Below, one piece after another: positions 28,392 to 55,149 of a stretch of DNA of 64,000 nt. Numbering within the stretch: the stretch's first letter is position 1; each line of letters starts with the position of its first letter. The stretch covers positions 1-64,000 of the forward strand of contig CANGTC010000001.1 of assembly GCA_947456505.1 (NCBI GenBank). Reading direction: 5' to 3'. The position numbers and the translations under genes were made by a program. Origin of the DNA: Beijerinckiaceae bacterium (GTDB lineage: Bacteria; Pseudomonadota; Alphaproteobacteria; Rhizobiales; Beijerinckiaceae). The notes beneath the pieces are model-generated. The model was not told where the DNA came from, made no database searches, and was given only the letters and a program-made list of their open reading frames with translations.

Positions 28392-28398
28392 GCGGCTG

Positions 28399-30504: not shown

Positions 30505-30536
30505 AGGTATCACTCCCCCGCAGGTTCAAAGATGTT

Positions 30537-34204: not shown

Positions 34205-34336
34205 ATCAGCCTCCTTCCATGAGGCCCATGCCAGGGCGCTCAAAAAGTGAGTGACCGATAGGCTAGAGCGAAATCAACCTGGCAGGCAAGCCTGGCATAC
34301 GCCAAGCGTTGGAACCAAGGCTCAAGTCCCTGCCGC

Positions 34337-35356: not shown

Positions 35357-35491
35357 CTTGGCTTTTCCTTCCCACTTGCGCATGAGCCTTCTTCCGTGGC
35401 GCGCAAGGCGAGCATATCGCGCCGCAAGCTGCGGCGCATGACGATTGGTCGCCATCCCGGCCGCGATGGCGGCAGGGACGGCGGCTACATC

Positions 35492-36598
35492 TCAGGCAAG
35501 TTCCAACTGGAACAGGTTGATCGCATTGTCGCGGGTCAAACGCTGACGGCGCTCCTCGGACAATCCCTTCAGATGATGCTCCACCACCTGTCTTGAATGG
35601 GGGAAAGTCATATTGAAATGCGGATAGTCGTTGGACCACATGCAGTTCTTCTCGCCCCACCAGGGGAAGAAGCGCGTGCCCACATAGTCCTCAAGGAAGG
35701 TCCCGTAGACATGCTCGGCGAAGATCTCGCTGGGCTTGCGATTGATGGGCAAGGGTCGGCTGTGGCGGAACCGCTCGAAATAATAGTCCCATTGCTGAAG
35801 GAGGAAGGGCAGCCAGCCAATCTCGCTTTCCGCCATGAGCAGCTTCAGGTCGGGATGACGATCAAAGGCGCCGGAGAAGATGAAATCGAACAGGGTATTG
35901 GCGGAGTCATTCGTCTTTGTGTTGGTGGCGTCCTTGAGGCCCTGTACGCCGCCCTTCTGGCCGGTCTTGGTATAGGAATGGCCGGTCAGAATGTGGCAGA
36001 TGACCGGCTGCTTGGCCTCAGCGCAGGCAGCCCAAAGGGGTTCATAATGTTCTGAGGTGAAGGGCAGGCGCGGGTCAGGGACCTGCCAGATCATTGCGCC
36101 CTTCAGACCCATATCGAAACCGCGCTGCATCTCCTTGATGCCCGCCTTCATGTCGTAGACCGAAACCAGCGGGCTGCCATAGAGGCGCTTGGGGTCGGCC
36201 TTGCAGAAACCATGCATCCAGTCGTTGTAGAGCTTGAAGGCTTCCTGCTGGGTCTCGACATCATCCATGCCGAAGAGCGCCATCCCGTAGTTGGGGAAGA
36301 GAATTTCCGCCGCCACGCCATCGGTGTCCTGATCCTGCAGGCGCAGATGGGGGTCGGTCGCGCCAGGGGGAGAGTTGCGGAAGGGCACTTTCGGCAGGTG
36401 CTCCTGAAGCCGCTTGGGCAATTCACGCCAGAGCTCCTCGGGCTCCATCACATGAGAATCCGTAGACACCATCTTGGGCATGGCGGACAGCTCGTCATTG
36501 CTCAAATCCTCGCCAACCACGGTGCGCCGGGGGAAGGTGCGGGCTTGTTCTTCCGACATGCCTGCGAATTTGGAGGCGTCAACGGGCAATTCAGGCAT
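35492..36598 (-). CDS. Amidohydrolase family protein (ACMSD-like metal-dependent hydrolase)
   Basis: MVSTDSHVMEPEELWRELPKRLQEHLPK; PVICHILTGHSY; FFPWWGEKNCMWSNDYPHFNMTFPHSRQVVE. Confidence 0.9.
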   Translation of the reverse strand: MPELPVDASKFAGMSEEQARTFPRRTVVGEDLSNDELSAMPKMVSTDSHVMEPEELWRELPKRLQEHLPKVPFRNSPPGATDPHLRLQDQDTDGVAAEILFPNYGMALFGMDDVETQQEAFKLYNDWMHGFCKADPKRLYGSPLVSVYDMKAGIKEMQRGFDMGLKGAMIWQVPDPRLPFTSEHYEPLWAACAEAKQPVICHILTGHSYTKTGQKGGVQGLKDATNTKTNDSANTLFDFIFSGAFDRHPDLKLLMAESEIGWLPFLLQQWDYYFERFRHSRPLPINRKPSEIFAEHVYGTFLEDYVGTRFFPWWGEKNCMWSNDYPHFNMTFPHSRQVVEHHLKGLSEERRQRLTRDNAINLFQLELA

Positions 36599-36681
36599 GG
36601 GTCGCTTCCTTCTGCGATGGCGCGGTCAGACGCGCTTGCTGTTGTCTTCAGGCTGCAGTGGCCAGATTCAACGGATGAACG

Positions 36682-37212
36682 TCACTCGGGGGAAAAGAAC
36701 TTGGCCTTGGCGTAGATGCGCTTCTTCGAGGTTTCGCCATTCTTGGGATCGTCGCCGACCTTGGTGGAGCCATCGCTGAATTTGGTCAGCTTCATCACAT
36801 CCTTGGGGGTGCCGACGCGGGACAGGTCATCGAGGCCCTTGACGCTGCGCTCGCCGCCGCCGACCCGAAGCATGACCAGATTTTCGGCCTCATCCGCCTC
36901 AAACTTGTATTCCACGTCCCTGGGGATCATCACGCCCTGATGAACGCCCACCAATTCGGTCCGACCATCGGCGAAAGTGAAGGTGGCCTTGCCCTGCAAG
37001 ACGATAAAGGAGTGATCCTCGCCCCCGTGGGAATGGAGGGCGTTCTCGCCGCCGCTGGCGTAGACCTTGACGCTGACCCAGAGGTTCTCAGCGGTCGCGA
37101 GGGGGTCATAAGTGGTGCCCTGCTCCAGCAGCGGCAGGTTACGCATGGAAAAGACCACGGCGCTATCCGTGGCGGCCACTGGGCTTCGCACGGCGATTTT
37201 GGCGTCATCCAT
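36682..37212 (-). CDS. Cupin-domain protein
   Basis: MDDAKIAVRSPVAATDSAVVFSMRNLPLLEQG...YASGGENALHSHGGEDHSFIVLQGKATFTFADGRTELVGVHQGVMIPRDVEYKFEADE. Confidence 0.85.
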   Translation of the reverse strand: MDDAKIAVRSPVAATDSAVVFSMRNLPLLEQGTTYDPLATAENLWVSVKVYASGGENALHSHGGEDHSFIVLQGKATFTFADGRTELVGVHQGVMIPRDVEYKFEADEAENLVMLRVGGGERSVKGLDDLSRVGTPKDVMKLTKFSDGSTKVGDDPKNGETSKKRIYAKAKFFSPE

Positions 37213-37369
37213 GGACCAGTCTCCCCTTAAATTTTTTGCAATCTCTTGTTGCCCCTGCGCGCGAGGCCTGTCAACCGCTCCGCCTCCGAGCCGCTTGACC
37301 TGCACCGGCGAGCCTGATCGACTGAGCTCCAGGCAGCCGCCCCAACAGAGCGGCGCAGGAGGAGCGTGG

Positions 37370-38386
37370 ATGTTGAGGGGCTTAACGGGTTTTCTGGCGG
37401 TGGCGCTGCCGACCCTATGGGCGCAGCCGGGGCAGGCGCAATCCCCCTCGGTCGAATCCTTCTATCGCGGCAAGACGGTCACGATCACGATCGGGTATGG
37501 CGTGGGCGGGTCCGATGATCTCTGGGGTCGACTGGCGGCCCGCTACATGGGGCGACACATCCCCGGGCAACCCCTTGTTGTGCCTCAAAATGCGCCAGGG
37601 GCCGGGAGTCTGGTCGCCGCCAACCAGGTCTATAACGTCGCCCCCAAGGACGGCACGGTCATCGGCGTGATCAATCGGGGCGTTCCCTTCGAGGCGGTTC
37701 TGGGCGGCGGCGGGGTGCAATTTGATCCCCGCAAATTCAACTGGCTGGGAAGCCCGGACAGCGACGTGATCGTGGCTTATGTTCGCACCGACGCCCCGGT
37801 CGCTCACGTGCGCGAGCTTCGCGATAAGGAGCTCATCGTCGCCTCCACCGGCAGCGGCGCCGATAGCCAGACCTACCCGCAGGTTCTCGCCAGGCTCTTT
37901 GGATGGAAGCTGCGCATCGTTCAGGGCTATCCGGGCTCGCGCGACATGAACCTCGCCGTTGAGCGCAATGAAGCGCAGGGAACTTTCATCAGCTATGACA
38001 CGGCCGCACGTGAACCAACCTTTGGCGACGGAACGCGACGCCTGCTGGTTCAGGGGACCATGACTCCCGACGAACGCATGAAGGATGTCCCCACCCTCGC
38101 CGGCCTCGCCCAATCCGAGGCGGAACAGCGCGCCGTTGATTTTTTCCTCCTGCGCGCGGGCATGGGGCGCCCCTTTGTGGCGGCGCCGGGCGTGCCGCCC
38201 GAGCGACTGAGCGCGCTGCGAGCCGCCTTTGCGGCCGCCTTGCGCGACCCGGATCTCATTGAAGAAAGCAAAAAGTTGCGGCTGAACATATCCTATGTGC
38301 CTCCAGAGATTCTCGAAGGCCTTGTCGACAAGGCCTATCGCGCGGACGCAGAAACGCTAGAGCGCGTTCGCAAGGCCATGCGCTGA
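37370..38386 (+). CDS. Orphan Bug/TctC-like substrate-binding protein (FYxGK subfamily)
   Basis: MLRGLTGFLAVALPTLWAQPGQAQSPSVESFYRGKTVTITIGYGVGGSDDLWGRLAARYMGRHIPGQPLVVPQNAPGAG. Confidence 0.85.
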   Translation: MLRGLTGFLAVALPTLWAQPGQAQSPSVESFYRGKTVTITIGYGVGGSDDLWGRLAARYMGRHIPGQPLVVPQNAPGAGSLVAANQVYNVAPKDGTVIGVINRGVPFEAVLGGGGVQFDPRKFNWLGSPDSDVIVAYVRTDAPVAHVRELRDKELIVASTGSGADSQTYPQVLARLFGWKLRIVQGYPGSRDMNLAVERNEAQGTFISYDTAAREPTFGDGTRRLLVQGTMTPDERMKDVPTLAGLAQSEAEQRAVDFFLLRAGMGRPFVAAPGVPPERLSALRAAFAAALRDPDLIEESKKLRLNISYVPPEILEGLVDKAYRADAETLERVRKAMR

Positions 38387-38391
38387 GACCC

Positions 38392-39513
38392 ATGCCATCA
38401 GACCAAGGACGACCAATGCCCTCCATCAAACTCCCCGATCCCTATCTCGACTGGGCGCGCGGCGAAGGCGTGCCAATTGTCGAGGATTTCGGTATCGACA
38501 TCCGAAAGGTCCCGGTCAAGCATTGGGACCGCTATGGCATGAACGGCGCCTTCTGCCACCTGAAGGGGCGCGACGACTATATCTCCATCTTCGCCTTTGA
38601 ACTGCCGCCCGGCGGCAAATCCGCCCCGCTGAAACATATCTGCGAAGAGGTGATCTATGTCATCTCCGGTCATGGCTCGACGACCGTGGAACTGGAGGAT
38701 GGCCGCAAGCACCAATTCGAATGGGGACCCAAGAGCCTCTTTTCCATTCCGCTGAACGCCCGTCACCAATATTTCAACGGATCGGGCCGCGAGCCCGCCC
38801 GCTTCGCCTCCGTCAACAATATGGTTTTCACCATGGGACGGTTTCGCGATGAAAACCTGATCTTCAATTGCCCCGTGAGTTTCCCCGAGCGGGTGGGGCA
38901 TGCGAATTATTTCGCGGGCGAAGGCGAATTCATCTCGATTTCGCCGGGGCGGCACCAGTGGGAAACCAATTTCGTACCGGATCTCTCTGGCTTCGAACTG
39001 CGCCAATGGGCCAAGCGCGGCGCGGGCGGCTCCAACCTGCGTTTCATGCTCACCGAAAACACCATCGGCGCTCATTCTTCGGAAATGCCCGTCGGCACCT
39101 ACAAGAAAGGCCACCGGCATTTTGACGGGGTCTGCGTTTTCGCGGTGACTGGCAAGGGCTATTCGCTGTTGTGGCGTGAGGAGAACGAGGACTTCACCCG
39201 CGTGGACTGGGAGCATGGCTGCGTTTACTGCCCGCCCGACTCCATGTTCCATCAGCACTTCAACGTCGCCGACCATCCCTCGCGCTACCTCGCGCTGCAA
39301 ATTGGAACTGTGCGCTATCCCCTGCTCAAGATGAAGCGGGAGATCTGGGATGTGGGCGTCGACAAGGATGTGAAACAGGGTGGCGCACAAGTGGAATATG
39401 AAGATCAGGACATGCGCGTACATGACATCTGGCTCCATGAAATCGCGAAAAACGGGGTTGAATCGCGCATGGGTCAATTCATCGACGAAAGCAAATTCAA
39501 GAGGAAGGCTTGA
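38392..39513 (+). CDS. Bicupin protein (dioxygenase-like), paralog 1
   Basis: Alternative start at 38416. Two cupin domains: GGKSAPLKHICEEVIYVISGHG..LFSIPLNARHQYFN and KKGHRHFDGVCVFAVTGKGY..SMFHQHFNVADHPSRYLALQIG. Confidence 0.85.
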   Translation: MPSDQGRPMPSIKLPDPYLDWARGEGVPIVEDFGIDIRKVPVKHWDRYGMNGAFCHLKGRDDYISIFAFELPPGGKSAPLKHICEEVIYVISGHGSTTVELEDGRKHQFEWGPKSLFSIPLNARHQYFNGSGREPARFASVNNMVFTMGRFRDENLIFNCPVSFPERVGHANYFAGEGEFISISPGRHQWETNFVPDLSGFELRQWAKRGAGGSNLRFMLTENTIGAHSSEMPVGTYKKGHRHFDGVCVFAVTGKGYSLLWREENEDFTRVDWEHGCVYCPPDSMFHQHFNVADHPSRYLALQIGTVRYPLLKMKREIWDVGVDKDVKQGGAQVEYEDQDMRVHDIWLHEIAKNGVESRMGQFIDESKFKRKA

Positions 39514-39515
39514 CC

Positions 39516-40430
39516 ATGAGCGAGACGGCGCCCGATCTCAGCGCGAAATATCTCGTCGATCCCTATCTGAACTGGGCGAAAGCCGAAGGCGTGCCTATAG
39601 TGGAGAGCGCGATGCTCGACCTTCATGCGCTTGAAACCAGGCCCTGGGCTCGATTCGGGATAAATGGGGCAATATGCCATGTGGAGGGGCGATGCGATTT
39701 TCTATCGGCCTTCTTGTTCGAACTGGCTCCAGGCCAAAGCTCGACGCCCCTTCGCCATCTCTATGAAGACTGCTTCTATGTACTTGAAGGATCGGGCGTC
39801 AGCGAAACCGAATTGTCCAATGGCGCGCGCCATGAGACACATTGGGGACCGAACATGGTCTTCACCACTCCGGTCAACGCGACCTGCAGGCTAAGGGCTG
39901 ACGGCGCCACCCGCGCGCGACTGCTGTCTCTGAACGACATGCGTTATCTCATGGGGCTTTATCGGAACGAGGACTTCCTCTTCCATAATTCTTCCCCCAT
40001 GAGCGCGCGTCAGGCGAAGGCGCTGGAAGCCACGCTTCAAGCTGATCTGACTAGGCTGAATGGCGATACGTCTCTACAACTGGGCGACAGCGCCATCGGC
40101 GCCGCCTACATCAGTCTGGCTCCAGGCGCCAAGACGCAAGCCAGGCGCCAGATGCAGGGCGCGCACCTGCTCTGCACCATGAGCGAGGCGACGATCATGT
40201 CCTGCGTTGACGAGACCTCCGAGCGGATCACGACCAGCTTGCGCCATGGCTGCCTCACGGGACTTACGGGCATGATGTTTCACCAACAAAGCAATAGGCG
40301 CGACGAGATGCTGGGCTTGCTGAAGGTGGAATTGGGCTCGCAGGCCTCCCCGCTCTTTCGCAGCCGCCGCGCAGCCTATGGGGATCAGGAGGTCTACGCG
40401 TCCGGCAGCGCCATACTGACGGGGATTTGA
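39516..40430 (+). CDS. Degenerate bicupin protein, paralog 2 (putative metal sites eroded)
   Basis: Colinear with 38392..39513 (VDPYLNWAKAEGVPIVESAMLD vs LPDPYLDWARGEGVPIVEDFGID), but ARHQYFN->ATCRLRA, GHRHFDG->ARRQMQG, FHQHFN->FHQQSN. Confidence 0.82.
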   Translation: MSETAPDLSAKYLVDPYLNWAKAEGVPIVESAMLDLHALETRPWARFGINGAICHVEGRCDFLSAFLFELAPGQSSTPLRHLYEDCFYVLEGSGVSETELSNGARHETHWGPNMVFTTPVNATCRLRADGATRARLLSLNDMRYLMGLYRNEDFLFHNSSPMSARQAKALEATLQADLTRLNGDTSLQLGDSAIGAAYISLAPGAKTQARRQMQGAHLLCTMSEATIMSCVDETSERITTSLRHGCLTGLTGMMFHQQSNRRDEMLGLLKVELGSQASPLFRSRRAAYGDQEVYASGSAILTGI

Positions 40431-40460
40431 GGCGCATTCCATCTTCTGTCCGAGGTGACC

Positions 40461-41504
40461 ATGCATGCCAATTCTGAAAAGATGATGACGCGCCGCGCCG
40501 CCTTGGCGGGCGCCGCGATCATGATCGGCGCCAGCCTGGCGCAGGCGCAAACGCCTGCAGAATTCTACAAGGGCAAACAGATCCAGATGATGGTCTATTC
40601 CGGCGCTGGATCGACCTATGACACCTATGCACGCCTGCTCTCCCGCCACATGATCCGCCATATCCCCGGTTCACCCAATATCGTGGTGCAGAACATGGTC
40701 GGCGCAGGCGGCCTCAAGCTGGTGGATTATCTCAACCGCATCGCGCCCAAAGATGGGACCGTCTTCGGCACGGTCAGTCGCGGCAATCCCTTTGACCCGA
40801 TCATGGGGAAGAAAGATATCGAATTCGATCCGCTCAAGCTGACCTGGATCGGCAGCATGAACCGGGAGGTCGCCATCGCCCTTTCCTGGGGAACATCGCC
40901 GGTCAAAACATTCGAGGATCTGCGGAAAATCGAATTGCTTGTCCCAGGCACAGGCGCTGGAGCGGATTCAGAGATCATCCCACGCGCCTACAATGTCCTG
41001 GCGGGAACCAAATTCAAGATCGTGTCAGGCTATCGCGACACGTCGGAAGCCTCGCTGCAGCTGGAAACCGGAGAATTGCAGGGCATCGCCTATTGGTCCA
41101 TGAGCGCCATCATGTCATTGAAGCCCGACTGGGTGCTCAACAAGAAGGTCAACATCCTCTTCCATACCGGCGTGAGCGAGGCGCCGGACCTGCCGGGTGT
41201 GCCACGTATCCGCGAACTGATAAAAGATGAGACCGACCGGAAGGCGCTGGAGTTTCTGCTCGCACGCGAAGTCATGGGCCGCCCCTTCGTAGGACCGCCA
41301 GGGATCCCAGCTGATCGCGCCAAGGCTCTGCGCGACGCTTTTGACGCCACCATGAAAGACCCGGAATTTCTAAAGGACGCCGCGCGGGGCAATGTCGAGG
41401 TGAACCTGGTCACAGCGGACGAAATCAACACATTGCTCAGGGACGCCGCCGCCTTGCCGCCCGCCGTCATCGAGCGCGCGCGCCAGACCCTCGAACGTAA
41501 CTAA
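40461..41504 (+). CDS. Orphan Bug/TctC-like substrate-binding protein (FYxGK subfamily), possibly Tat-exported
   Basis: MTRRAALAGAAIMIGASLAQAQTPAEFYKGKQIQMMVYSGAGSTYDTYARLLSRHMIRHIPGSPNIVVQNMVGAGG. Confidence 0.86.
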   Translation: MHANSEKMMTRRAALAGAAIMIGASLAQAQTPAEFYKGKQIQMMVYSGAGSTYDTYARLLSRHMIRHIPGSPNIVVQNMVGAGGLKLVDYLNRIAPKDGTVFGTVSRGNPFDPIMGKKDIEFDPLKLTWIGSMNREVAIALSWGTSPVKTFEDLRKIELLVPGTGAGADSEIIPRAYNVLAGTKFKIVSGYRDTSEASLQLETGELQGIAYWSMSAIMSLKPDWVLNKKVNILFHTGVSEAPDLPGVPRIRELIKDETDRKALEFLLAREVMGRPFVGPPGIPADRAKALRDAFDATMKDPEFLKDAARGNVEVNLVTADEINTLLRDAAALPPAVIERARQTLERN

Positions 41505-41583
41505 TCGCGCGCATTGAAGCCTCTATTTGCGCTGGAGTATACTTTTCGTCGGAAACTTTTGTTGATTCGCTGCGGGAGGCGAA

Positions 41584-41802
41584 ATGCGATGCAATCTGTG
41601 TGATGGATCCGGCATGCAGCGCGCGGCCATTGGATTGACGCCCTGTCCGGAGTGCGGAGGTTGCGGCGTGGCTCACTGTTGCGATGGGTTGGTCGCTTGC
41701 GGCGAGGTGGAAGGCGACATACGGTTCGAGCGCGCGAAAATATCCCATGCGACGGCGAATATCTCGCCGCCTCAACTACCAACGCCCATCGTCAAGCCAT
41801 GA
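41584..41802 (+). CDS. Small DnaJ-type zinc-finger-like protein
   Basis: MRCNLCDGSGMQRAAIGLTPCPECGGCGVAHCCDG: CxxCxGxG and CxxCGGCG motifs. Confidence 0.6.
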   Translation: MRCNLCDGSGMQRAAIGLTPCPECGGCGVAHCCDGLVACGEVEGDIRFERAKISHATANISPPQLPTPIVKP

Positions 41803-41845
41803 CGCTCTGGACAGCAAACAATCACCTCAAGGAAAGTGAATAATC

Positions 41846-42442
41846 ATGAAATTGCTCGGTTCAAGCCGCAGTCCCTATGTGCAGAAAGTTCGCATCGCCA
41901 TGGTCGAGAAAGGTCTGGCGTTCGAATACGATCCAGCCTTGCCGAACAGCGATGAAGTGACCGGCGCCAATCCGCTCGCCAAGATCCCGACCCTGATCCG
42001 CGATGACGGCAAGGGCCTCTATGATTCTTCGGTCATCGTTGAATATGTGGACGGTTGCGCCGGGAACCCGACATTACTACCAAAGGATTTCGAAGCCCGC
42101 ATCGAGGCACGCCGTTGGGAGGCGCTTGGCAACGGCGTCACCGACGCCACCGTGCAGATCTCCCATGAGCACCGGGCCCCGCCCGAGCAACGCAAGGGAC
42201 CTGAATTTATCGCGAAGCATCAACGCAAGATCGACGCGGGGCTCGACGCCATGGAAAGGGACATGGGGCCAAACGGCTTTTGCATGGGCTCCAGCTTCAC
42301 GCTGGCGGATGTCGGTTGCGCCAGCGCCCTGCTCTATCTGGATCTCGCCCAGCCCGACCTGAAATGGCGCGACACCCATCCGAAACTGGCCAAAGCCTTC
42401 GCCCAATGGAAAGAACGCCCCTCCTTGAAGGCGCTGGCTTGA
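41846..42442 (+). CDS. Glutathione S-transferase
   Basis: MKLLGSSRSPYVQKVRIAMVEKGLAFEYDPA...NPLAKIPTLIRDDGKGLYDSSVIVEYVD. Confidence 0.92.
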   Translation: MKLLGSSRSPYVQKVRIAMVEKGLAFEYDPALPNSDEVTGANPLAKIPTLIRDDGKGLYDSSVIVEYVDGCAGNPTLLPKDFEARIEARRWEALGNGVTDATVQISHEHRAPPEQRKGPEFIAKHQRKIDAGLDAMERDMGPNGFCMGSSFTLADVGCASALLYLDLAQPDLKWRDTHPKLAKAFAQWKERPSLKALA

Positions 42443-42475
42443 TGGCGCTGACGCTTAGCGCCTGACAGCTATATT

Positions 42476-42505
42476 CCCCTCACGGATGACATCGTCCGTG
42501 AGGGG
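42476..42505. promoter_or_regulatory. Perfect 11-bp inverted repeat (hairpin or operator) between GST and bicupin genes
   Basis: CCCCTCACGGA-TGACATCG-TCCGTGAGGGG with no adjacent T-run; a second hairpin GGCGCT-GACGCTT-AGCGCC lies at 42444-42462. Confidence 0.55.
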
Positions 42506-42605
42506 TCGCTTCGCCGCTGCGGTGGCGACCACGCGCGACGAGCGGCAGGGTTGCGAAGGGTCTCCACCAGGCATAAGTTCCCTTAAAAGTATGGGGAGCG
42601 AAGCT

Positions 42606-43808
42606 ATGCCGCATGATGAAACAACCACGCATTGGCATGAACCTAAGGCCGGTGAGAATGCAGGCTTTGGCAAGTTCAAGCGCCCCGCAATGCCCTATGA
42701 CCGCTTCATAGAGGCGGAGGGAATTCCCTGTTATCGCGGCATTGGCCTGAGGCGAGCGCAAGACCTCCCGATGGCGCCATGGAAGCGGCTGGGCGGCAAA
42801 GGCTCCTATATCCAGCTCTACGGCACCGAAGGACTCTGGGGCTCCTATGTGGTCGAAATCCCCGCAGGCGGCGCGCTCAACATCGAGCATCACCTCTACG
42901 AAAAGCAATGCTATATCGCCGAAGGGCGAGGCTCGACGGAGGTCTGGCAGGAAGGCCAGACGAAGAAGCAGACCTTCGAATGGCAGAAGGGCTCGCTTTT
43001 CTCGATCCCGCTCAATGCCTACCATCGCTTTGTCAACGCGACGAATGCGCCAGCCATCATGATCTGCGGCACCTCTGCGCCCAACATCATGAACCTCTTC
43101 GACAATCCCCGCTTCGTCTTCGAATGCCCCTTCAACTTCACAGACCGCTATTCCGGCGAAGACGATTACTTCAAAAGCCGCGACGATCTGGAGCCTGACC
43201 CCGTGCGCGGCCTGGCCATGCGCCGCACCAATTTCATGCCCGACATCATCAATTGCGAAATGCCGCTGGATAACCGCAGGTCCCCGGGCTACCGGCGCAT
43301 CGAACCGGAAATGGCGGGACAGCGCTTTCACCTGTGGATCGGCCAGCATGAAACGGGCCGCTACTCAAAGGCCCATGCGCATGAAAGCTGCGCAGTGCTC
43401 ATCTGCGTCAAGGGCAAGGGCTATACCTATACATGGCCGGCGATCTACGGCTCGACGCCCTGGAAAGACGGGCATGCGGACAAGGTTCTGCGACAAGACT
43501 ATGAGGCCGGCGGCATGGTCTCGGCGGCGCCTATGACGGGCGACTGGAACCACCAGCATTTCGGCGTCTCGAAGGACCCGCTGCGCGTCACCGCATGGTT
43601 CGGCCCGAACAATCATCCCGCCCGCAAACCCGGACTTCCGGGAGAGGCGATGACTGACAAATGGGCCATCGACATCAAGAAGGGGGGCGTCGCCATCCCC
43701 TACCACGCCGAGGACCCCTTCCTGCGTCAGGAGTTCGAAGACTATATGAAACGAGAGGGAGTGCCGGTGCGGATGGAGCCAAAGCTCTACGAGCCTCCGG
43801 CGGATTAG
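42606..43808 (+). CDS. Bicupin protein (dioxygenase-like), paralog 3
   Basis: AGGALNIEHHLYEKQCYIAEGRGSTEVWQ..LFSIPLNAYHRFVN and SKAHAHESCAVLICVKGKGY..GDWNHQHFGVSKDPLRVTAWFG. Start taken at ATG 42606, preceded by GGGGAG. Confidence 0.84.
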   Translation: MPHDETTTHWHEPKAGENAGFGKFKRPAMPYDRFIEAEGIPCYRGIGLRRAQDLPMAPWKRLGGKGSYIQLYGTEGLWGSYVVEIPAGGALNIEHHLYEKQCYIAEGRGSTEVWQEGQTKKQTFEWQKGSLFSIPLNAYHRFVNATNAPAIMICGTSAPNIMNLFDNPRFVFECPFNFTDRYSGEDDYFKSRDDLEPDPVRGLAMRRTNFMPDIINCEMPLDNRRSPGYRRIEPEMAGQRFHLWIGQHETGRYSKAHAHESCAVLICVKGKGYTYTWPAIYGSTPWKDGHADKVLRQDYEAGGMVSAAPMTGDWNHQHFGVSKDPLRVTAWFGPNNHPARKPGLPGEAMTDKWAIDIKKGGVAIPYHAEDPFLRQEFEDYMKREGVPVRMEPKLYEPPAD

Positions 43809-43883
43809 CGATCATTCAAGGAGCGCCGAGTTGCGGCGACCCAGCAAAGACGCCTTATAAAAGGGCCTGCAGGGAGGATTTTC

Positions 43884-44912
43884 ATGGCATGGCCGAATTG
43901 CATCCATGCGCTCGCGCTGGCGGTTGCGCTGTCAGGCGCTCAAACGGCTATCGCTCAGGATTTTTATAGTGGCAAAAAGATTTTCATTGTCAGCGCCTCC
44001 TCCGCAGGCGGAGGATACGACCAATATGCGCGGCTGCTGGCGCGCCATCTGGGGAAGCGTATTCCCGGCGCGCCAACAATCATTGTGCAGAACATGCCCG
44101 GCGCGGAAGGCGTCAAGGCCGCCAACTACATCTATCATCTGGCGCCGCAGGACGGGACCTATATCGGCGCCCTGCCGCGCTCTGTGAGCCTGTCCAAACT
44201 CTATGCCCATCATGAGCAGTCGCTGCAATTCGATCCCTTCACCTTCCAATGGCTGGGGTCGCTGAAACGCGACACCGGCGTTCTCGCGGTGAACGCGAAA
44301 TCTGGCCTCCAAAGTCCGGAAGATCTCAAGAAGCGTGAGGTCACGCTGAGTTCTCAAGCCTCGAACTCTCCCAATTCCATGTATGCGCGGATGCTCAATG
44401 CGCTCTATGGGTCGAAGCTGAAACCCATCGAAGGCTATGAGGGATCCACCGCAGGAATGCTGGCGGTAGAGCGTTTCGAAGTGGATGGACATGTGAGCGG
44501 CGGCACAACGGCGCCGCTGAAAAACAAGATCGCTGGCTGGATGAAGGCGGGAACGGGAAAAGTCCTCCTGCAATTCGGCATGAACCGAGACATGGATTAT
44601 CCGGATGCGCCAACCGCGCTGGACCTGATCCCTGATGCTGAAGGGCGGGCGGTTTTTGAACTGGCCTTCACCGAACAGGAAATCGGCAGCCCCTATGTGC
44701 TGGGACCCAAAGTGCCCGCCGCGCAGATGGAAATTCTGGAAAAGGCTTTCATCGACACTGCGCGCGACCCGAATTTTCTGACCGACGCCGCCAGCGAAAA
44801 CGCTCCCATCTATCTGCTGGACGCCACAGCGATACAAGCTCTACTCAAAAAGGCCTATGGGTCGCCGCCCCCGCGAATCCAGCGATTGCGCGATCTGGCC
44901 ATCGCCAAGTAA
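43884..44912 (+). CDS. Orphan Bug/TctC-like substrate-binding protein (FYxGK subfamily)
   Basis: DFYSGKKIFIVSASSAGGGYDQYARLLARHLGKRIPGAPTIIVQNMPGAEGVKAANYIYHLAPQDGTYIG. Confidence 0.87.
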   Translation: MAWPNCIHALALAVALSGAQTAIAQDFYSGKKIFIVSASSAGGGYDQYARLLARHLGKRIPGAPTIIVQNMPGAEGVKAANYIYHLAPQDGTYIGALPRSVSLSKLYAHHEQSLQFDPFTFQWLGSLKRDTGVLAVNAKSGLQSPEDLKKREVTLSSQASNSPNSMYARMLNALYGSKLKPIEGYEGSTAGMLAVERFEVDGHVSGGTTAPLKNKIAGWMKAGTGKVLLQFGMNRDMDYPDAPTALDLIPDAEGRAVFELAFTEQEIGSPYVLGPKVPAAQMEILEKAFIDTARDPNFLTDAASENAPIYLLDATAIQALLKKAYGSPPPRIQRLRDLAIAK

Positions 44913-45017
44913 ACTGAATCCAGCGCGAGCGGGCGGCACGCTTGTCAAAAAGTCGCACAGAAGGCATCTTGAAACAGAGGGGCGCAGCATAAGCCGTCCA
45001 CAAGGGAGGCTGGTCCA

Positions 45018-45125
45018 ATGACGGATCGCAACAAGCAGCGCTCACCGTCCAATTTTCACTGGTTCGACGCAGGCCATGCGCCGCGTCGCGGCTCGCTCTG
45101 GCGCTTTTCACCACGGGGACACTGA
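45018..45125 (+). CDS. Candidate 35-codon leader ORF upstream of the AMDase-like gene
   Basis: GGGAGG Shine-Dalgarno followed by ATG 45018: MTDRNKQRSPSNFHWFDAGHAPRRGSLWRFSPRGH*, TGA at 45123-45125, 1 nt before ATG 45127. Below the size cutoff of the ORF track. Confidence 0.4.
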   Translation: MTDRNKQRSPSNFHWFDAGHAPRRGSLWRFSPRGH

Positions 45126-45126
45126 C

Positions 45127-45861
45127 ATGGCTTTTTCGGCTTGGCGCGGCATTGCCGGCATCATCCATCCCACCCTGCGCCCCGGCGCGCTGGAGGAATT
45201 CATCCGCCTCATGCCGGAAGGGATCGGCATATTGCCCCTCTTCACCAATATCCGACAGGGCACACGCGCCGAATTCGCCACCGTGATGGGCGCTTATGAA
45301 ACCCAGATCGCCCTGCTCGCCGAACAGGGATGCGACGCCATCCATCCCAATGGCGCGCCGCCCTTCATGGTGCATGGACTGAAAGGCGAGGCGGAGATCG
45401 TCTCCGCCTGGGAAAAGAAATATCAAACGCCGATTTTCACCGCCGGGCAGAACCACATTACCGCCCTTCGCGCGATGAAGGTGAAAAGCATTGCCGGCGT
45501 CAGCTACTTCCCCGGCGAAATCAACAACACCTTCGCGCAATATTTCACCGACGCCGGGTTCGAGGTGCGTTGCATGGAGGGCATGGAAACGCCCTTCAAC
45601 AAGGCGCAGGAACTCTCGGGCGAACAGGTCTACGCCTTCATCAAGCACCACTTCCTGAAGTGCGGCGGCGCCGACGCCATCTATATGCTGGGCTCGGGCT
45701 GGCGCACGCTGCATATCATCGACCTGCTGGAGCGCGATCTCGGCGTGCCGGTCCTCCATCCCGTTCCCGCGCGCGTCTGGGAGTTCCAGAAGCGCCTGCA
45801 TGTCAATGAGCCAAGGCTCGGCTATGGTCAGTTGCTCGCCACGCTGCCGCCCCTCCCCTGA
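45127..45861 (+). CDS. Asp/Glu racemase superfamily protein (maleate isomerase/arylmalonate decarboxylase-like), paralog 1
   Basis: MAFSAWRGIAGIIHPTLRPGALEEFIRLMPEG...IHPNGAPPFMVHG...AIYMLGSGWRTLHIIDLLERDLGVPVLHPVPARVWE...LGYGQLLA. Confidence 0.8.
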   Translation: MAFSAWRGIAGIIHPTLRPGALEEFIRLMPEGIGILPLFTNIRQGTRAEFATVMGAYETQIALLAEQGCDAIHPNGAPPFMVHGLKGEAEIVSAWEKKYQTPIFTAGQNHITALRAMKVKSIAGVSYFPGEINNTFAQYFTDAGFEVRCMEGMETPFNKAQELSGEQVYAFIKHHFLKCGGADAIYMLGSGWRTLHIIDLLERDLGVPVLHPVPARVWEFQKRLHVNEPRLGYGQLLATLPPLP

Positions 45862-46925
45862 TGGAAAGGCAGTTCGCAATGTCGTCTCGCCTCGCTCATT
45901 TGCTCGCCGCCATTCTGTCCCTGGCCCTACTCGCGCCCTGCGCCGCGCAAACGCCGGAGCAGTTCTACGCAGGCAAAGCGCTGAGCCTTGTCGTACCGAC
46001 CTCTCCGGGCGGCAATTTTGACCTGAACGCGCGTCTGGTCGCGCGACATATCGGGCGGTTTATCCCTGGGCAGCCCTCGGTTGTGGTGCGCAATATGCCA
46101 GGCGCCGGGGGCATGCTGCTCGCCAATCAGTTGGTGAATAGCCGCGAGCAAGATGGCCTGACCATCGCCATCATGGAGCGCGGCACGCCGCAATTGGCCT
46201 ATGAGGGCAATCCCAATGTGCGTTTCGATCCGCTCAAGTTCAACTGGATCGGATCGCTATCCTCCTACGCAAGCGACGCCTATCTGATGCTGGTCAACGA
46301 CTCCCATCCAGCCAGAAGCGTCGCTGATTTACGCAAGCCTGAGATGGTTGTGCGGCTGGGTGGGGACATGCCCGGCTCCACCAATCTTACCTTCGCCATC
46401 CTCGCCCGCGATGTTCTTAAGCTCAACGTCAAGCTCGTGCGCGGCTACCCTGGCGCGGCGCCCATGTTCATCGCCATGCAGGGCGGCGAACTTGATGGGC
46501 AGATGATTGGTCTGGGGTCGGTGCGCGGCGGGCAACCCGCGCTGTGGAATGGCAAGAAGGTGCGCCCCCTGCTGCAGGTGGGCCGCACGAGCCGCCTCGC
46601 AGAACTCTCTGATATTCCCACGGGACGCGAGCTGCTCTCAGATCCAGACGATCTTGCTTTGATGCAATTTGCGGAACTGTCCTTCTTCATCGCCTTGCCC
46701 TTTCTGGCGCCGCAGAATGTGCCTGCTGATCGCGTCGCCGCTCTGCAAAAAGCCTTTATGGATATGACGCGGGACAAGGATTTCCTTGAGGACGCCGCAC
46801 GCGCCAATTTCGAGCTGAGCCCGATCGACGGTGCGGCCGTGCGGGCCGTTATCGAGAAAATGGCGGCTACGCCGCAAGCGATCATCCGTCGCTATGTCGA
46901 TATCGTACGCCAGGGCAGCGAGTAA
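45861..46925 (+). CDS. Orphan Bug/TctC-like substrate-binding protein (FYxGK subfamily)
   Basis: TGATG stop/start overlap with the preceding gene; EQFYAGKALSLVVPTSPGGNFDLNARLVARHIGRFIPGQPSVVVRNMPGAGG. Confidence 0.87.
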   Translation: MERQFAMSSRLAHLLAAILSLALLAPCAAQTPEQFYAGKALSLVVPTSPGGNFDLNARLVARHIGRFIPGQPSVVVRNMPGAGGMLLANQLVNSREQDGLTIAIMERGTPQLAYEGNPNVRFDPLKFNWIGSLSSYASDAYLMLVNDSHPARSVADLRKPEMVVRLGGDMPGSTNLTFAILARDVLKLNVKLVRGYPGAAPMFIAMQGGELDGQMIGLGSVRGGQPALWNGKKVRPLLQVGRTSRLAELSDIPTGRELLSDPDDLALMQFAELSFFIALPFLAPQNVPADRVAALQKAFMDMTRDKDFLEDAARANFELSPIDGAAVRAVIEKMAATPQAIIRRYVDIVRQGSE

Positions 46926-46974
46926 GCCCCGCGCCACCCAACCTGTTCAACCCGTCCAGATGGAGAAATAAAAA

Positions 46975-47706
46975 ATGGCCTATACCAGCTGGAGAGGCGT
47001 GGTCGGCTGCATCAAGCCAACGCTACGCCCGGGCGGCATCGAGGAGTTGATCCGTATCTTGCCCGATGGAGTTTGCCTGCTGCCCCTGTTCCTCGACATC
47101 CGAAAAGGCACGGTGGACGAATTCAAACGGGCCATCGACCCCTACGAGCCCCTGTTGGCGCGCCTGGCAGAAGCCAAAGTGGATTTGCTGCATCCTGAGG
47201 GCGCGCCGCCCTTCATGCTGCTGGGCTACCAAGGCGAGTGTGAGGTGATCGCGCGCTGGGAAGACAAATACAACATTCCCGTCTTCACCTCCGGCAGCAA
47301 CCATGTGCGCGCCATGAGAGCGCTGGGTGTCAAGAGCTTTGTAGGCGCCACCTATTTCAATGGACCCATTAATGACGTCTTCGCCAAATATTTCGTCGAA
47401 GCGGGCTTTGACGTATTGGGGATGGAAGGGCTTGATGTGCCCTTCCAGGATGTAGGCCAGCTCTCGCCCTATGAAGTCTACGCCCACGTGAAACGCGCCT
47501 TCCTGCGCCAGCCCAAGGCCCAAGCGATCTATCTGCTGGGCTCCGGCTGGCGTGTGATGGAGATGATTGAAGAACTGGAGCAGGATTGCGGCGTGCCCGT
47601 CATACACCCGATCCCGGCGCGCGCATGGGAGATCCAGCGCAGACTGTGCATCCGCCAGCGCGTCACAGGCTATGGCCAGTTGCTCGCGGATATGCCAGTG
47701 GACTGA
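46975..47706 (+). CDS. Asp/Glu racemase superfamily protein (maleate isomerase/arylmalonate decarboxylase-like), paralog 2
   Basis: MAYTSWRGVVGCIKPTLRPGGIEELIRILPDG...LHPEGAPPFMLLG...AIYLLGSGWRVMEMIEELEQDCGVPVIHPIPARAWE...TGYGQLLA. Confidence 0.8.
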   Translation: MAYTSWRGVVGCIKPTLRPGGIEELIRILPDGVCLLPLFLDIRKGTVDEFKRAIDPYEPLLARLAEAKVDLLHPEGAPPFMLLGYQGECEVIARWEDKYNIPVFTSGSNHVRAMRALGVKSFVGATYFNGPINDVFAKYFVEAGFDVLGMEGLDVPFQDVGQLSPYEVYAHVKRAFLRQPKAQAIYLLGSGWRVMEMIEELEQDCGVPVIHPIPARAWEIQRRLCIRQRVTGYGQLLADMPVD

Positions 47707-47739
47707 AATCCGCCACGCAAACCTCTCAAGGCCATAACC

Positions 47740-48717
47740 GTGACTCACTTAACCCTGCCCATAGCCGTCACCATCGGGGACCCTCATGGCATTGGCCCGG
47801 AGATCGCCGTGAAGGCCGCTGTCGCTTTTATGAACGGCGGCCCCCGTGTGATTCTCGTCGGCGATCGTTTCATCATCGAACACTATGCACAGCGCCTTTT
47901 TCCCGATGTGCTCCTGCAGGAGACGCGCGAGGGCGGAGCGCCGGGGCCCGGCTGCATCGAATTTCTGCCGGTGGAGGCTATGCAGCCGGACCATTTCAAG
48001 CCCGGCCAGATTGACCCTGCGGCCGGCGCCGCCATGGTGGCCTATGCGGCGGCGGCGCTCGATTTCGCGCGCGCAGGCAAGGCGCATGCGGTGGTGGGGT
48101 GTCCGCATAACGAGACTGCGGTGAACCGGGCGGGCATTCCCTTCAGCGGCTATCCCGGCCTTGTGGCGCGCCTCACGAATGTGCCCGAAGATCAGGTCTT
48201 CATGATGTTGGTCGGTGGAGGCCTCCGCATTCTCCATGTCACCCTGCATGAGCGTCTGGCGGATGGGCTAGCGCGCATTACCCCGGAACTCGTGGAGGCC
48301 GCAGTGCATGCCTGCGTCGCAGCGCTCACTACTTTGGGCGTCGCTTCTCCACGCATCGGCCTCTTCGGCATCAATCCCCATGCAGGCGAAGGCGGCCTCT
48401 TTGGCGATGACGATGAGCGCGTCAATGTCCCTGCGGCGGCGCGCCTGCGCGCGGCGGGCATTGATGTGGTTGGGCCAGTGGGCGCTGACGTGATGCTGGG
48501 CGAGCGCAACTGTGACGCCTATATCGCCATGTTCCACGATCAGGGCCACATACCTGTCAAGCTGATGGCGGGTCGCCATGCGTCGGCGCTGTCAATTGGC
48601 TCGGGCGTTCTCTTCTCCAGCGTCGGCCATGGCAGCGCCTTTGATATCGCAGGCCAGGGCATCGCTGATCCGGAAGCCGTCATCCGCACCGTGCGCTTGC
48701 TGGCGGGGCATGGGTGA
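47740..48717 (+). CDS. PdxA family (PdxA2-like) NAD-dependent dehydrogenase
   Basis: GTG start; IAVTIGDPHGIGPEIAVKAAV; GINPHAGEGGLFGDDDE; MFHDQGHIPVKLM. Confidence 0.88.
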   Translation: MTHLTLPIAVTIGDPHGIGPEIAVKAAVAFMNGGPRVILVGDRFIIEHYAQRLFPDVLLQETREGGAPGPGCIEFLPVEAMQPDHFKPGQIDPAAGAAMVAYAAAALDFARAGKAHAVVGCPHNETAVNRAGIPFSGYPGLVARLTNVPEDQVFMMLVGGGLRILHVTLHERLADGLARITPELVEAAVHACVAALTTLGVASPRIGLFGINPHAGEGGLFGDDDERVNVPAAARLRAAGIDVVGPVGADVMLGERNCDAYIAMFHDQGHIPVKLMAGRHASALSIGSGVLFSSVGHGSAFDIAGQGIADPEAVIRTVRLLAGHG

Positions 48718-48991: not shown

Positions 48992-50011
48992 TCATTTGCC
49001 ATCGAGCGCCTTCCGCACTCGCGCCACCACCGCTGGCGGCGTCGCCATGACGCTCTTGACCAGCGCAGCTACCTCCTCGCCGGTCATCGGCTCCACATCC
49101 AACTGCAGCCGCTTGGCCTCGGCTATAAGCGACGCGTCCCGCATGGTCGCATCAAACGCCTTGCGCAGCGCTGCGACACGCGCGGCCGGTACGCCCGGAG
49201 GCGCGACAAATGGACGGCCCGCCTCCAGCCTTGAGGTCAGAAGTTTGAGCGCCAGATGATCCTCGTCCGTCTTGGCCAGGCTTTCCACCAAGGGATAGGC
49301 GGTAAGATCGGGATGCGCGGGTCCGTTCCATTGAGCCAGAAGCCGTATTTTACCACGGACGATCCAGTCCGCATTCAGCGTCTTGAGACTGGACCAGGCC
49401 AGAGCGCCGAGGCCCTGAACCTCGCCAGCCTCCATGGCCTTGTGGATCTGGGCAGTGCCTTCATAGCCGCTGACGACTTTGAATCTAGTCCCCAGAATGG
49501 CGTTGGTGACCAGCGGAAAATCCGCCTGGGTGGTCCCTGACGAGGTGGCGCCGATGATCAATTCCTTCGACAACAAATCCTGTAAATTTAAAACAGGCGA
49601 GGTGTGCCATGCATAAATCACCTGCGTGTCACGATTGGTGCTGCCAATCCAGTTGAACTGGACGGGGTCGAAACGGGCGGAATCAGGCTGCAACAGTGGT
49701 GCTGTGGGAACCCCGTTTATGATTGCGGCGACGACAGTTCCATCCTTGGCTGCGGTGTTGGCGAGCGTATTGGCCGTGATGAGACTTCCCGCGCCCGGCT
49801 GATTTTGCACCACGATGGTGGGATTACCGGGAATATGACCGCCCCAATGGCGCGCGACCATGCGGGCGTTAATGTCATAGCCTGAGCCCACGCCACTGCC
49901 GACAATCAGATGGATCTGTTTGCCCCTGTAAAAGGAGGCGACGTCCTCATCTGCCCCGGGGGCGGACGAGACGCTGGCTAACAGGCCAACCAACACAAAA
50001 GCCTTACGCAT
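48992..50011 (-). CDS. Orphan Bug/TctC-like substrate-binding protein (FYxGK subfamily)
   Basis: MRKAFVLVGLLASVSSAPGADEDVASFYRGKQIHLIVGSGVGSGYDINARMVARHWGGHIPGNPTIVVQNQPGAG. Confidence 0.86.
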   Translation of the reverse strand: MRKAFVLVGLLASVSSAPGADEDVASFYRGKQIHLIVGSGVGSGYDINARMVARHWGGHIPGNPTIVVQNQPGAGSLITANTLANTAAKDGTVVAAIINGVPTAPLLQPDSARFDPVQFNWIGSTNRDTQVIYAWHTSPVLNLQDLLSKELIIGATSSGTTQADFPLVTNAILGTRFKVVSGYEGTAQIHKAMEAGEVQGLGALAWSSLKTLNADWIVRGKIRLLAQWNGPAHPDLTAYPLVESLAKTDEDHLALKLLTSRLEAGRPFVAPPGVPAARVAALRKAFDATMRDASLIAEAKRLQLDVEPMTGEEVAALVKSVMATPPAVVARVRKALDGK

Positions 50012-50061
50012 CGTATGAACCTCCCTCTTATTCTCAGCAGACCAAACTGGATCGCGCAAAA

Positions 50062-52416
50062 CTAATTCATATCGCGGTCCGCACGCGCCATCTTGATTGC
50101 ATGCCAGATAGCTTGTGGCGTCGCAGGCAAAGGCAGATCGGTAACCCCCAGCGGCCGCAAGGCGTCCAGAAGCGCATTCATGATAGCTGCAGGCGCAGGC
50201 ACCACGCCTCCCTCGCCGCCCGCTCGAACTCCCAATTCGTTGGTGGGGGACGGCAGCTCGAGTATTTCAGTCTCGAAGAAAGGCAAATCGCTCGCACGTG
50301 GCAGCGCATAATCCATCAGGGATCCCGTCAAAAGCTGCCCGTCATCGGCATAAATACAGCGTTCAAGAAGCGCCTGACCGATGCCCTGCACAATTCCACC
50401 ATGGGTCTGCCCATGAATGATCATCGGGTTCACCGACTTCCCGACATCATCCACTGCGGCATATTGCACAACTTGCGCCAGGCCCGTATCGGGGTCTATT
50501 TCCACCTCCGCCATCGCAGCGCCATAGGGGAAGCCTGCGACGCGATGAATTTCTTCAAAAGACGCCGAAAGCATTTTTTCCTCATCCAAGGCTGCGATTT
50601 CGAAAAGGGTAAGCCCCTTGTCCGTCCCATGCACAAAGCATCGACCTGCTTCATAATGAATGTCCGTCGCCGCTACTTCGAGCAGTTCCGCCGCTGCAAC
50701 CTTCGCCTTCTCTATCAATTTGACAACTGCGCCTTTGATCACAATTCCGGCCATGCGCATCGAACGACTTGAAGCGGTCCCCCCGCCAGCCGTCGCAATA
50801 TCAGTGTCGCCACTGAGAATACGCACGGACTCGACGGGAACCTCGAGCCATTGGGACACAACCTGAGCGAAGCTGGTCTCATGGCCCTGCCCGCTGGATT
50901 GGGTGCCTATGATCACATCTAGACCGCGATCCGGAAGGACATGAATAATGGCTCGTTCAAAGGGATCCCCGGTAGCAATTTCGATATAATTGGAAACACC
51001 TATCCCTCGCAGCTTCCCCTCTTTGCCAGACGCGCTTTTACGATCAAAAAACCCAGCCCAATTTCCCAAGCCAACTACAACGTCCATTGCGGAAGGAAAA
51101 TCACCGCTATCATAAATGACGCCAAATGGATTCCGGTAACGACCATCGTGAAGCCCGAGCAGATTCCGGCGCCTGATTTCGAGCCGGTCCATCTTCAGCT
51201 CAAATGCCGCCTGGTCGATCAATCTTTCAATCACATACATGGCCTCGGGCCTGCCCGCGCCCCGCAGATTGGTTATCGGCGGCAAGTTCGTGTTCACAAC
51301 GCGGACATGCGCGCAGGCCAAAGGAATCTTGTAAACGCTAGTCATCAATTCTGCAGATTTGATCGATGGCACAATTGTTACGGCATAGGCGCCCACGTTC
51401 AAAACGCTGGATTCACGCATCGCCAAAAACCTGCCCTCCGCATCGAGCGCCAGCTCGGCCTGCGCATATAAATCCCTTCCCTGATAGTCGGACAAAAATG
51501 ATTCCTGACGATCAGCTGTCCATTCAACAGGCTTTCCCACGAATTTCGAAGCCCAGGCCACAAGCGCGAATTCTGGCGAGAGAGGATTGCGGCTGCCAAA
51601 ATTTCCACCGACATCGCCGGCGATGACCCGCACCTGATCCGGCTGAACGCCCAGCACCGTCGCCAGCGCGTGCTTGTGGCGGACCGCGCCACCACCCCCT
51701 GCATGAATCGTATAATGATCGAGGACTGCATCATATTGAGCACGCACAGCACGAGGTTCAAGCGGCGCGGCGGTGACGCGCGGTATCAATGTGTCAAGAC
51801 GAACCCGATGTGGCGCGGCTGAGAAGACAGCTTCGACTGCGGAGATATCGCCGATGGTGGAATCCAAAATCACATTTGTGTTGCGTTCGCTCCAAGCGGG
51901 AGGAGCGTCGGGCGCACAAGCGCGAAGTCCGTCAGTCACTGCAGGCAATAGCTCGAATTCGAAATGCACCTGTTCCGCAGCATCGCGAGCCTGAAAAGCG
52001 GTCTGCGCCACTACGACGGCAATGACCTCCCCAATAAAGCGGACTTCGGGGCCCGCAAGTGGAAAATGCGGAACGACGAATGGCCCGGAACCGTCCGCAT
52101 TGAACATCTCCACATCCATTCCCCCCGTCGGCATTGGCCGATGGGGAAGCGCCTTCAGGCCGACTGCGTGGCACGCCGTCAGAATCGCCAACACGCCCGG
52201 CAGACGCGTCGCAGCTTCATCATTGACCCGGACGATGCGCGCATGAGCATGCGGTGAGCGAATCATGACAGCGCTGACCACGCCGGGCGCTCTAATATCA
52301 TCGGTGAAGCACCCAAGCCCCCTAATAAACCGCCCATCCTCGCGGCGCAGCACAGACGCACCAATTCCCGTCGCCACTCGACCAGGGGCGCTAATAGCCA
52401 ATTCGCCTTTTTTCAT
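50062..52416 (-). CDS. Xanthine dehydrogenase family molybdopterin-binding (large) subunit
   Basis: GIGASVLRREDGRFIRGLGCFTDD; RSPHAHARI; GDVGGNFGSRNP; LRGAGRPEAMYVIERLID; GTQSSGQGHETSFAQVV; AGGEGGVVPAPAAIMNALLDAL. Confidence 0.92.
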   Translation of the reverse strand: MKKGELAISAPGRVATGIGASVLRREDGRFIRGLGCFTDDIRAPGVVSAVMIRSPHAHARIVRVNDEAATRLPGVLAILTACHAVGLKALPHRPMPTGGMDVEMFNADGSGPFVVPHFPLAGPEVRFIGEVIAVVVAQTAFQARDAAEQVHFEFELLPAVTDGLRACAPDAPPAWSERNTNVILDSTIGDISAVEAVFSAAPHRVRLDTLIPRVTAAPLEPRAVRAQYDAVLDHYTIHAGGGGAVRHKHALATVLGVQPDQVRVIAGDVGGNFGSRNPLSPEFALVAWASKFVGKPVEWTADRQESFLSDYQGRDLYAQAELALDAEGRFLAMRESSVLNVGAYAVTIVPSIKSAELMTSVYKIPLACAHVRVVNTNLPPITNLRGAGRPEAMYVIERLIDQAAFELKMDRLEIRRRNLLGLHDGRYRNPFGVIYDSGDFPSAMDVVVGLGNWAGFFDRKSASGKEGKLRGIGVSNYIEIATGDPFERAIIHVLPDRGLDVIIGTQSSGQGHETSFAQVVSQWLEVPVESVRILSGDTDIATAGGGTASSRSMRMAGIVIKGAVVKLIEKAKVAAAELLEVAATDIHYEAGRCFVHGTDKGLTLFEIAALDEEKMLSASFEEIHRVAGFPYGAAMAEVEIDPDTGLAQVVQYAAVDDVGKSVNPMIIHGQTHGGIVQGIGQALLERCIYADDGQLLTGSLMDYALPRASDLPFFETEILELPSPTNELGVRAGGEGGVVPAPAAIMNALLDALRPLGVTDLPLPATPQAIWHAIKMARADRDMN

Positions 52417-52419
52417 GTT

Positions 52420-53439: not shown

Positions 53440-53519
53440 CTTGCCCCCCAACAGTGATCTTCTTTTAATCGGCTGCAAAAGATCGACAATGGTCGCAATC
53501 TGATGCCTCCATCGAGTGA

Positions 53520-55141: not shown

Positions 55142-55149
55142 TTCAGTCC

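Follow-up and report, generated by a model that had tools for sequence, protein, structure and literature searches.

Introduction

The tph operon of Comamonas, a system for terephthalate, encodes the receptor TphC, the Rieske dioxygenase TphA2A3 and the dihydrodiol dehydrogenase TphB. In this study, we analyzed a block of twelve genes (positions 37370-48717, + strand) in a 64-kb stretch of DNA (hereafter, the window) from a 4.39-Mb metagenome-assembled genome (MAG, 88% complete) of a freshwater Beijerinckiaceae bacterium, in which TctC-type receptors are interspersed with enzyme genes up to a terminal PdxA-family gene. On the one hand, the block resembles the tph operon in its TphB-like PdxA (52% identity) and in its TctC-type receptors, one of which (SBP4) has terephthalate-binding TctC proteins among its closest solved relatives, and in congeneric genomes PdxA directly follows the alpha and beta genes of a Rieske oxygenase (RHO). 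On the other hand, the block itself contains no Rieske oxygenase, carries additional bicupins and AMD-like genes, and the ring-cleavage partner in the congeners is gentisate-dioxygenase-like.

Known genes for arylmalonate decarboxylase (AMDase) also lie near genes of the tripartite tricarboxylate transporter (TTT) family (PMC4996985, Maimanakos et al. 2016). The block shares with these loci the AMDase fold and an adjoining TTT-family receptor, but its AMD family lacks Cys188 and Thr75-Ser76, and two AMD genes bracket one receptor. The hypothetical protein OPAG_01669 of Rhodococcus opacus (PDB 4ix1) is closest to AMD2 in both sequence (26% identity) and fold, and in the alignment it too has no cysteine at the Cys188 position. 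The gentisate and 5-aminosalicylate 1,2-dioxygenases have two cupin domains, as do the bicupins of the block, and BC1 is remotely similar to MabB (E 2e-6). However, the block bicupins carry their metal-type histidine motifs in the C-terminal cupin, show no full-length match to these dioxygenases, and include a pair of one intact and one degenerate member (BC1-BC2).

We compared the window with 51 congeneric genomes (labelled Beijerinckiaceae, Rhizobiales or Hyphomicrobiales; several from lakes), in which AMD, PdxA, BC3 and BC2 were located and the surrounding loci were then read. The block consists of several separately conserved modules and is not one conserved pathway operon. We consider it likely to be a mosaic of separately inherited uptake and catabolism cassettes for carboxylated compounds, which are most likely aromatic. 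An apparent twelve-step pathway is thus resolved into testable modules, and the block is an unusually clear case of cassette assembly.

Modular organization of the block

The genes of the block and of the adjoining part of module A are as follows.

34337-35455, - strand: left-end gene of module A, without its own Pfam match at E<=0.001, beside the amidohydrolase gene
35492-36598, - strand: Amidohydro_2 (PF04909) gene of module A, 90-93% amino acid identity at the same position in four congeners
37370-38386, + strand: SBP1, divergent TctC-type receptor of module A (TctC 26.1 bits; dN/dS 0.09)
38392-39513, + strand: BC1, intact bicupin with C-terminal HxH...HQHF (85-97% amino acid identity across the genus; dN/dS 0.035)
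39510-40430, + strand: BC2, bicupin paired with BC1 and degenerate (RxQ in place of the C-terminal HxH)
40461-41504, + strand: SBP2, TctC-type receptor (Pfam), end of module A
41584-41802, + strand: ZnF, small Cys-rich zinc-finger-like open reading frame (ORF) of 72 amino acids, with weak coding evidence
41846-42442, + strand: GST, glutathione S-transferase family (GST_N/GST_C; 95% amino acid identity in G537, dN/dS 0.05)
42606-43808, + strand: BC3, bicupin (Cupin_2; dN/dS 0.014-0.03), start of module B
43807-47737, + strand: AMD cassette SBP3-AMD1-SBP4-AMD2 (3.9 kb), precisely absent in G537
43884-44912, + strand: SBP3, divergent TctC-type receptor (TctC 25.9 bits)
45127-45861, + strand: AMD1, Cys-less AMDase-like protein (Amdase PF17645; dN/dS 0.03)
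45861-46925, + strand: SBP4, TctC-type receptor (TctC 35.1 bits; solved relatives include terephthalate-binding proteins)
46975-47706, + strand: AMD2, Cys-less AMDase-like protein (Amdase PF17645; dN/dS 0.02)
47740-48717, + strand: PdxA-family gene (PF04166), predicted TphB-like cis-dihydrodiol dehydrogenase, probably relocated

The twelve + strand ORFs are all present, in frame, intact and tightly spaced, and Pfam confirmed the families, in agreement with the preliminary description of co-directional receptor and enzyme genes ending in PdxA. The bicupins match Cupin_2, BC2 falling just below the cut-off (26.7 against 27.2 bits). Intergenic gaps range from -4 to about 214 nt: SBP1/BC1 5 nt, BC1/BC2 an overlap of 4, BC2/SBP2 about 24-30, SBP2/ZnF 79, ZnF/GST 43, GST/BC3 163, BC3/SBP3 75, SBP3/AMD1 214, AMD1/SBP4 an overlap of 1, SBP4/AMD2 49 and AMD2/PdxA 33. 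Homologues place the starts of BC3 and AMD1 at 42606 (not 42486) and 45127 (not 45076). Comparison with G537 or G028 (SBP4 left out) gave ratios of nonsynonymous to synonymous substitution rates (dN/dS) of 0.014-0.15 for the compared genes other than ZnF, and the frames of the compared genes are open in the sister genomes. These values indicate purifying selection on the compared genes, least clearly on ZnF. Its orthologue in the sister species G537 shows 78% amino acid identity and a dN/dS of 0.27; since no copy turned up outside the window and G537 and it has no Pfam match, ZnF is the least certain gene. A scan for promoter-like and terminator-like sites in the block gave chance-level results, which speak neither for nor against co-transcription.

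Module A (34332-41502) comprises the divergent genes at 34337 and 35492 and SBP1-BC1-BC2-SBP2, and module B (42606-48717) comprises BC3-SBP3-AMD1-SBP4-AMD2-PdxA. In BLASTN comparisons, DNA homology covers all of module A in G541 and G538, ending at 41498-41502, and all of module B in G028, or module B in pieces in G541 and G543. The breakpoints coincide with gene ends. The gene order of module B is found in G028, G541 and G543, and in G538 it is split over two contigs. In these four genomes, the genes at 34337 and 35492 lie adjacent to and divergent from SBP1 (G541 L187, G028 L186, G543 L218 and G538 L219) and stand with SBP1-BC1-BC2, accompanied by SBP2 in G541 and G538, on contigs other than that of module B. 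In G537, by contrast, the order SBP1-BC1-BC2-SBP2-ZnF-GST-BC3-PdxA is the same as in the window (82-98% identity), with PdxA directly after BC3 at a gap of 62 nt. This genome is colinear with the window at 36682-43806 and resumes at 47738; thus, the AMD cassette is a unit of gain or loss. No AMD gene was found in the G537 assembly (86% complete), and as the cassette occupies this position in more distant relatives too, loss in G537 may be assumed. In the lineage of the window species and G537, the two modules have become fused, and ZnF and GST lie at the junction.

The block had been described as one twelve-gene route, and a single operon in the window species for one carboxylated aromatic, with the enzymes as successive steps and the receptors for related acids, would agree with the co-directional packing, with the order shared with G537 and with the BC3-AMD-PdxA order shared with G028, G541 and G543. 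A bicupin also lies near AMD in G096, G067, G509, G550 and G513 (as BC1-AMD1-SBP4) and on the 'Deltaproteobacteria' and Chloroflexi contigs L140, L143 and L148. However, in G028, G541, G543 and G538 the two modules occupy separate contigs, and the AMD cassette is dispensable, as the otherwise colinear G537 shows. The AMD1-SBP4-AMD tandem has neither BC3 nor PdxA beside it in G512, G548, G551, G521, G528 and G506, and PdxA belongs elsewhere to an RHO operon. Accordingly, we do not retain the single route and consider such an operon unlikely. The co-occurrence across genomes proposed as a check held in part: pairings of a receptor with a bicupin or an AMD-like gene recur, but the twelve-gene set splits into modules.

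PdxA and the Rieske oxygenase operon

The closest solved relative of PdxA is TphB (4aty; 333 bits, 52% identity), against 124 bits to E. coli-type PdxA and 164 bits to D-threonate 4-phosphate dehydrogenase, and its score with the NCBIfam pdxA model (244 bits) is below the cut-off of 290. In the alignment, the metal-binding histidine motifs LHE, NPHAGEGG and HDQGH and the FSSVGHGS loop are identical to those of 4aty. The six block PdxA sequences group together in a single clade and are 51-53% identical to TphB. In eight congeners (G506, G507, G512, G516, G519, G520, G531 and G549), the PdxA orthologue (60-66% identity) is the third gene of an operon RHO alpha - RHO beta - PdxA; genes for a gentisate-dioxygenase-like bicupin, a TctC protein and usually an FAH hydrolase are divergent from this operon. 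These sequence comparisons support a TphB-like dihydrodiol dehydrogenase, as had been supposed with the assignment to catabolic cis-diol dehydrogenases, and the proposal of aromatic-acid catabolism is likewise a sound reading given this operon.

G028, G537, G538 and G541 retain the RHO genes together with the gentisate-dioxygenase-like gene but have no PdxA there, and the TphB-like PdxA found in these genomes is the block copy. No Rieske oxygenase lies in the window block, and the orthologues share an operon with RHO in at least eight congeners. The simplest reading is that the block PdxA was probably relocated from an ancestral RHO operon and serves the Rieske pathway in trans. Since the assembly of the window species holds only an RHO paralogue of 54% identity, its partnership of PdxA with RHO is deduced from sister species. 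In this way, comparative synteny ties an orphan PdxA to a Rieske-oxygenase route. An FAA-hydrolase gene is convergent to PdxA in G541, G543 and G538 (L063:11369-12220 (-), L064, L081, L217); in the window, no such gene was seen next to PdxA.

For the mosaic reading, we propose that TctC-type receptors would hand acids over to a small number of tripartite membrane units that they share. Module A would provide amidohydrolase-superfamily enzymes together with BC1 and the degenerate BC2, which probably form one hetero-oligomeric metal oxygenase, and module B would provide BC3 and an insertable receptor-AMD1-receptor-AMD2 cassette. AMD1 and AMD2, with the AMDase fold, would have to perform a cysteine-free chemistry on carboxylates, such as decarboxylation, isomerisation, lyase or hydration reactions. 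PdxA, now outside its ancestral operon, would act in trans as the dihydrodiol dehydrogenase of a Rieske-oxygenase pathway. Several points weigh against this reading. No member of the block has a known substrate, and the window MAG lacks an RHO orthologue of the sister type. The small gaps and common direction of the genes in the window and G537 are equally expected of a single operon. Also, BC3 and AMD2 orthologues occur together in 13 genomes (BC3 in 14, AMD2 in 15), which could be a functional link; shared ancestry confounds it, and the carriers may all belong to a single clade.

Bicupins and GST

Of the 51 congeners, 50 carry BC3-type genes, each with 3-19 copies; a sample of 115 genomes from other genera of the family contained none. 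A full-length BC2 is present in 31 genomes, and in at least 25 of these it adjoins BC1. The C-terminal HxH...HQHF is intact in all six BC1 orthologues, RxQ replaces HxH in all six of BC2, and the dN/dS of BC2 is about four times that of BC1. From these sequence features, we propose that BC2 may be a non-catalytic partner of BC1.

The block might instead have nothing to do with aromatics, if the bicupins were non-enzymatic (sensor- or storage-like) proteins or PdxA a sugar-acid or threonate phosphate dehydrogenase. Neither BC1, BC2 nor BC3 has a full-length NCBIfam match, gentisate dioxygenase included. BC3 found nothing useful among PDB sequences, and a Foldseek search with its model found only generic bicupins (template modeling (TM) score about 0.46), the nearest being OxDC, MncA and vicilin rather than gentisate dioxygenase; also, some PdxA-like proteins act on D-threonate 4-phosphate. 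However, HxH and HQHF of the C-terminal cupin are invariant across phyla, the BC1/BC2 profile shows remote similarity to gentisate dioxygenase (E=5e-4) and BC1 to 5-aminosalicylate dioxygenase, and both the score of PdxA to TphB and the RHO genes beside its orthologues argue against such a reading. Accordingly, we regard a non-aromatic block as improbable.

GST had been considered a possible maleylpyruvate isomerase, but it scores 55 bits with the MaiA model against a cut-off of 171, and that assignment is not supported; with the generic GST model PRK10357 it reaches 127 against 181 bits.

AMD1 and AMD2

AMD1 and AMD2 match Pfam Amdase at 59-70 bits (cut-off 25.9), and the AlphaFold model of AMD2 (pLDDT 88.8) superimposes on 4ix1, maleate isomerase and AMDase structures with TM scores of 0.83-0.88. 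Together with the AMDase genes known near TTT genes, this would suit true AMDases (decarboxylases) or maleate isomerases (cis-trans isomerases) of the cysteine type; the preliminary description had named both enzymes. However, the NCBIfam AMDase model gives 57-59 bits against a cut-off of 225. We aligned 40 relatives from Alphaproteobacteria, 'Deltaproteobacteria', Binatia and one Chloroflexi-labelled MAG. The proton donor Cys188 is replaced by Gly in all 40, where the ILLSCGGL motif reads IYLLGSGWR, and in the dioxyanion hole Gly74-Thr75-Ser76 (LMGTSLSF) Gly is kept while Thr75 is Ala and Ser76 is Pro, again in 40/40. Tyr126 of AMDase is kept in every sequence, as Tyr127. The positions Cys188, Thr75-Ser76 and Tyr126 are the published AMDase criteria (PMC4996985), so AMD1 and AMD2 are not AMDases by the published definition. 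Both catalytic-cysteine positions of racemases and maleate isomerases are also Gly (Gly76 and Gly189), which excludes the two-cysteine mechanism. With these cysteines gone, we consider cysteine-type chemistry hardly credible.

A different active site may be formed by the conserved residues His73, Trp192, Arg193, His211, Arg216 and Trp218. It is possible, and we put it forward tentatively, that AMD1 and AMD2 belong to a widespread Cys-free branch of the Asp/Glu-racemase/AMDase proteins with a new mechanism. Their substrate would be an aromatic or dicarboxylic acid taken up from outside, and they would be coupled to an oxygenase system of bicupins in which the degenerate BC2 would be an obligate partner of the active BC1. 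Two uncharacterised enzyme groups are exposed, both expanded in Beijerinckiaceae, many of which come from lakes: the paired intact and degenerate bicupins, and a Cys-free AMDase-like family that spans Alphaproteobacteria, Binatia and 'Deltaproteobacteria' and for which 4ix1 is a ready structural template. We searched the literature for bicupin/TTT clusters and for Cys-less AMDases and found no description of such a system. A GTDB contig scan found 249 relatives of AMD2, and a plasmid collection held only distant AMD relatives (about 31% identity or less). We had considered AMD2 an extreme orphan, as only its own genome matched among a 399-genome sample of the phylum, and dropped this idea after the GTDB scan.

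In ten loci, mostly on 'Deltaproteobacteria' and Binatia contigs, a UbiD-type decarboxylase gene is found no more than four genes away from an AMD relative, which hints at carboxylated AMD substrates and proves nothing. UbiD-type ORFs, of the prenylated flavin mononucleotide (prFMN) kind, were seen near Cys-less AMD genes at L138:5187-6683 and similarly in L134, L136, L139, L146, L153, L157, L163, L169, L079 and L168, in distant lineages and in the congener G528. In a further conserved congener context, AMD stands with a second molybdopterin dehydrogenase as well as an alpha/beta hydrolase (L084, L085, L087-L090, L094). The AMD-receptor-AMD tandem also lies beside apparent ABC-transporter receptors (L076-L078, L150, L151, L160), in L077, L078, L151 and L160 together with a small protein lacking a Pfam match.

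Receptors and neighboring genes

SBP2 (36.4 bits) and SBP4 exceed the TctC cut-off of 27 bits, and SBP1 and SBP3 fall just under it. The window's own 4.4-Mb genome has about 148 TctC matches against 8 TctA matches, which is an extreme expansion of orphan TctC receptors. With such numbers, most receptors must presumably share membrane units. What a periplasmic receptor binds is a substrate on its way into the cell, not an intermediate in the cytoplasm. On both grounds, the idea of a dedicated receptor per intermediate does not stand. With about 150 receptors, such bacteria are plausible consumers of terrestrial dissolved organic carbon; in river microbiomes, TTT genes have been proposed to associate with terrestrial organic matter degradation (PMC7597016). 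Terephthalate-binding TctC proteins are among the closest solved relatives of SBP4 (E 1e-11). We do not claim a substrate for SBP4 from this likeness, as receptor specificity is unreadable at such sequence distance.

Further TctC-family matches in the window include 18201-19274, 31548-32561 and 48992-50059. The genes at 48992-53478 (- strand), convergent to the block, encode a fifth TctC-type receptor, the large subunit of a molybdopterin dehydrogenase and an NMT1-type receptor, and the receptor-dehydrogenase pair also adjoins PdxA in G537 (L184, 80-86%). A thiolase-like gene and a TctC receptor follow at 53936-56172 (- strand) and are kept beside the block PdxA in G028, G541 and G543 (81-94%). 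At 26817-29361 and 29383-30513, a sulfatase, a metallo-beta-lactamase-fold protein and a luciferase-like monooxygenase lie near another TctC receptor, and these genes look like more catabolic cassettes.

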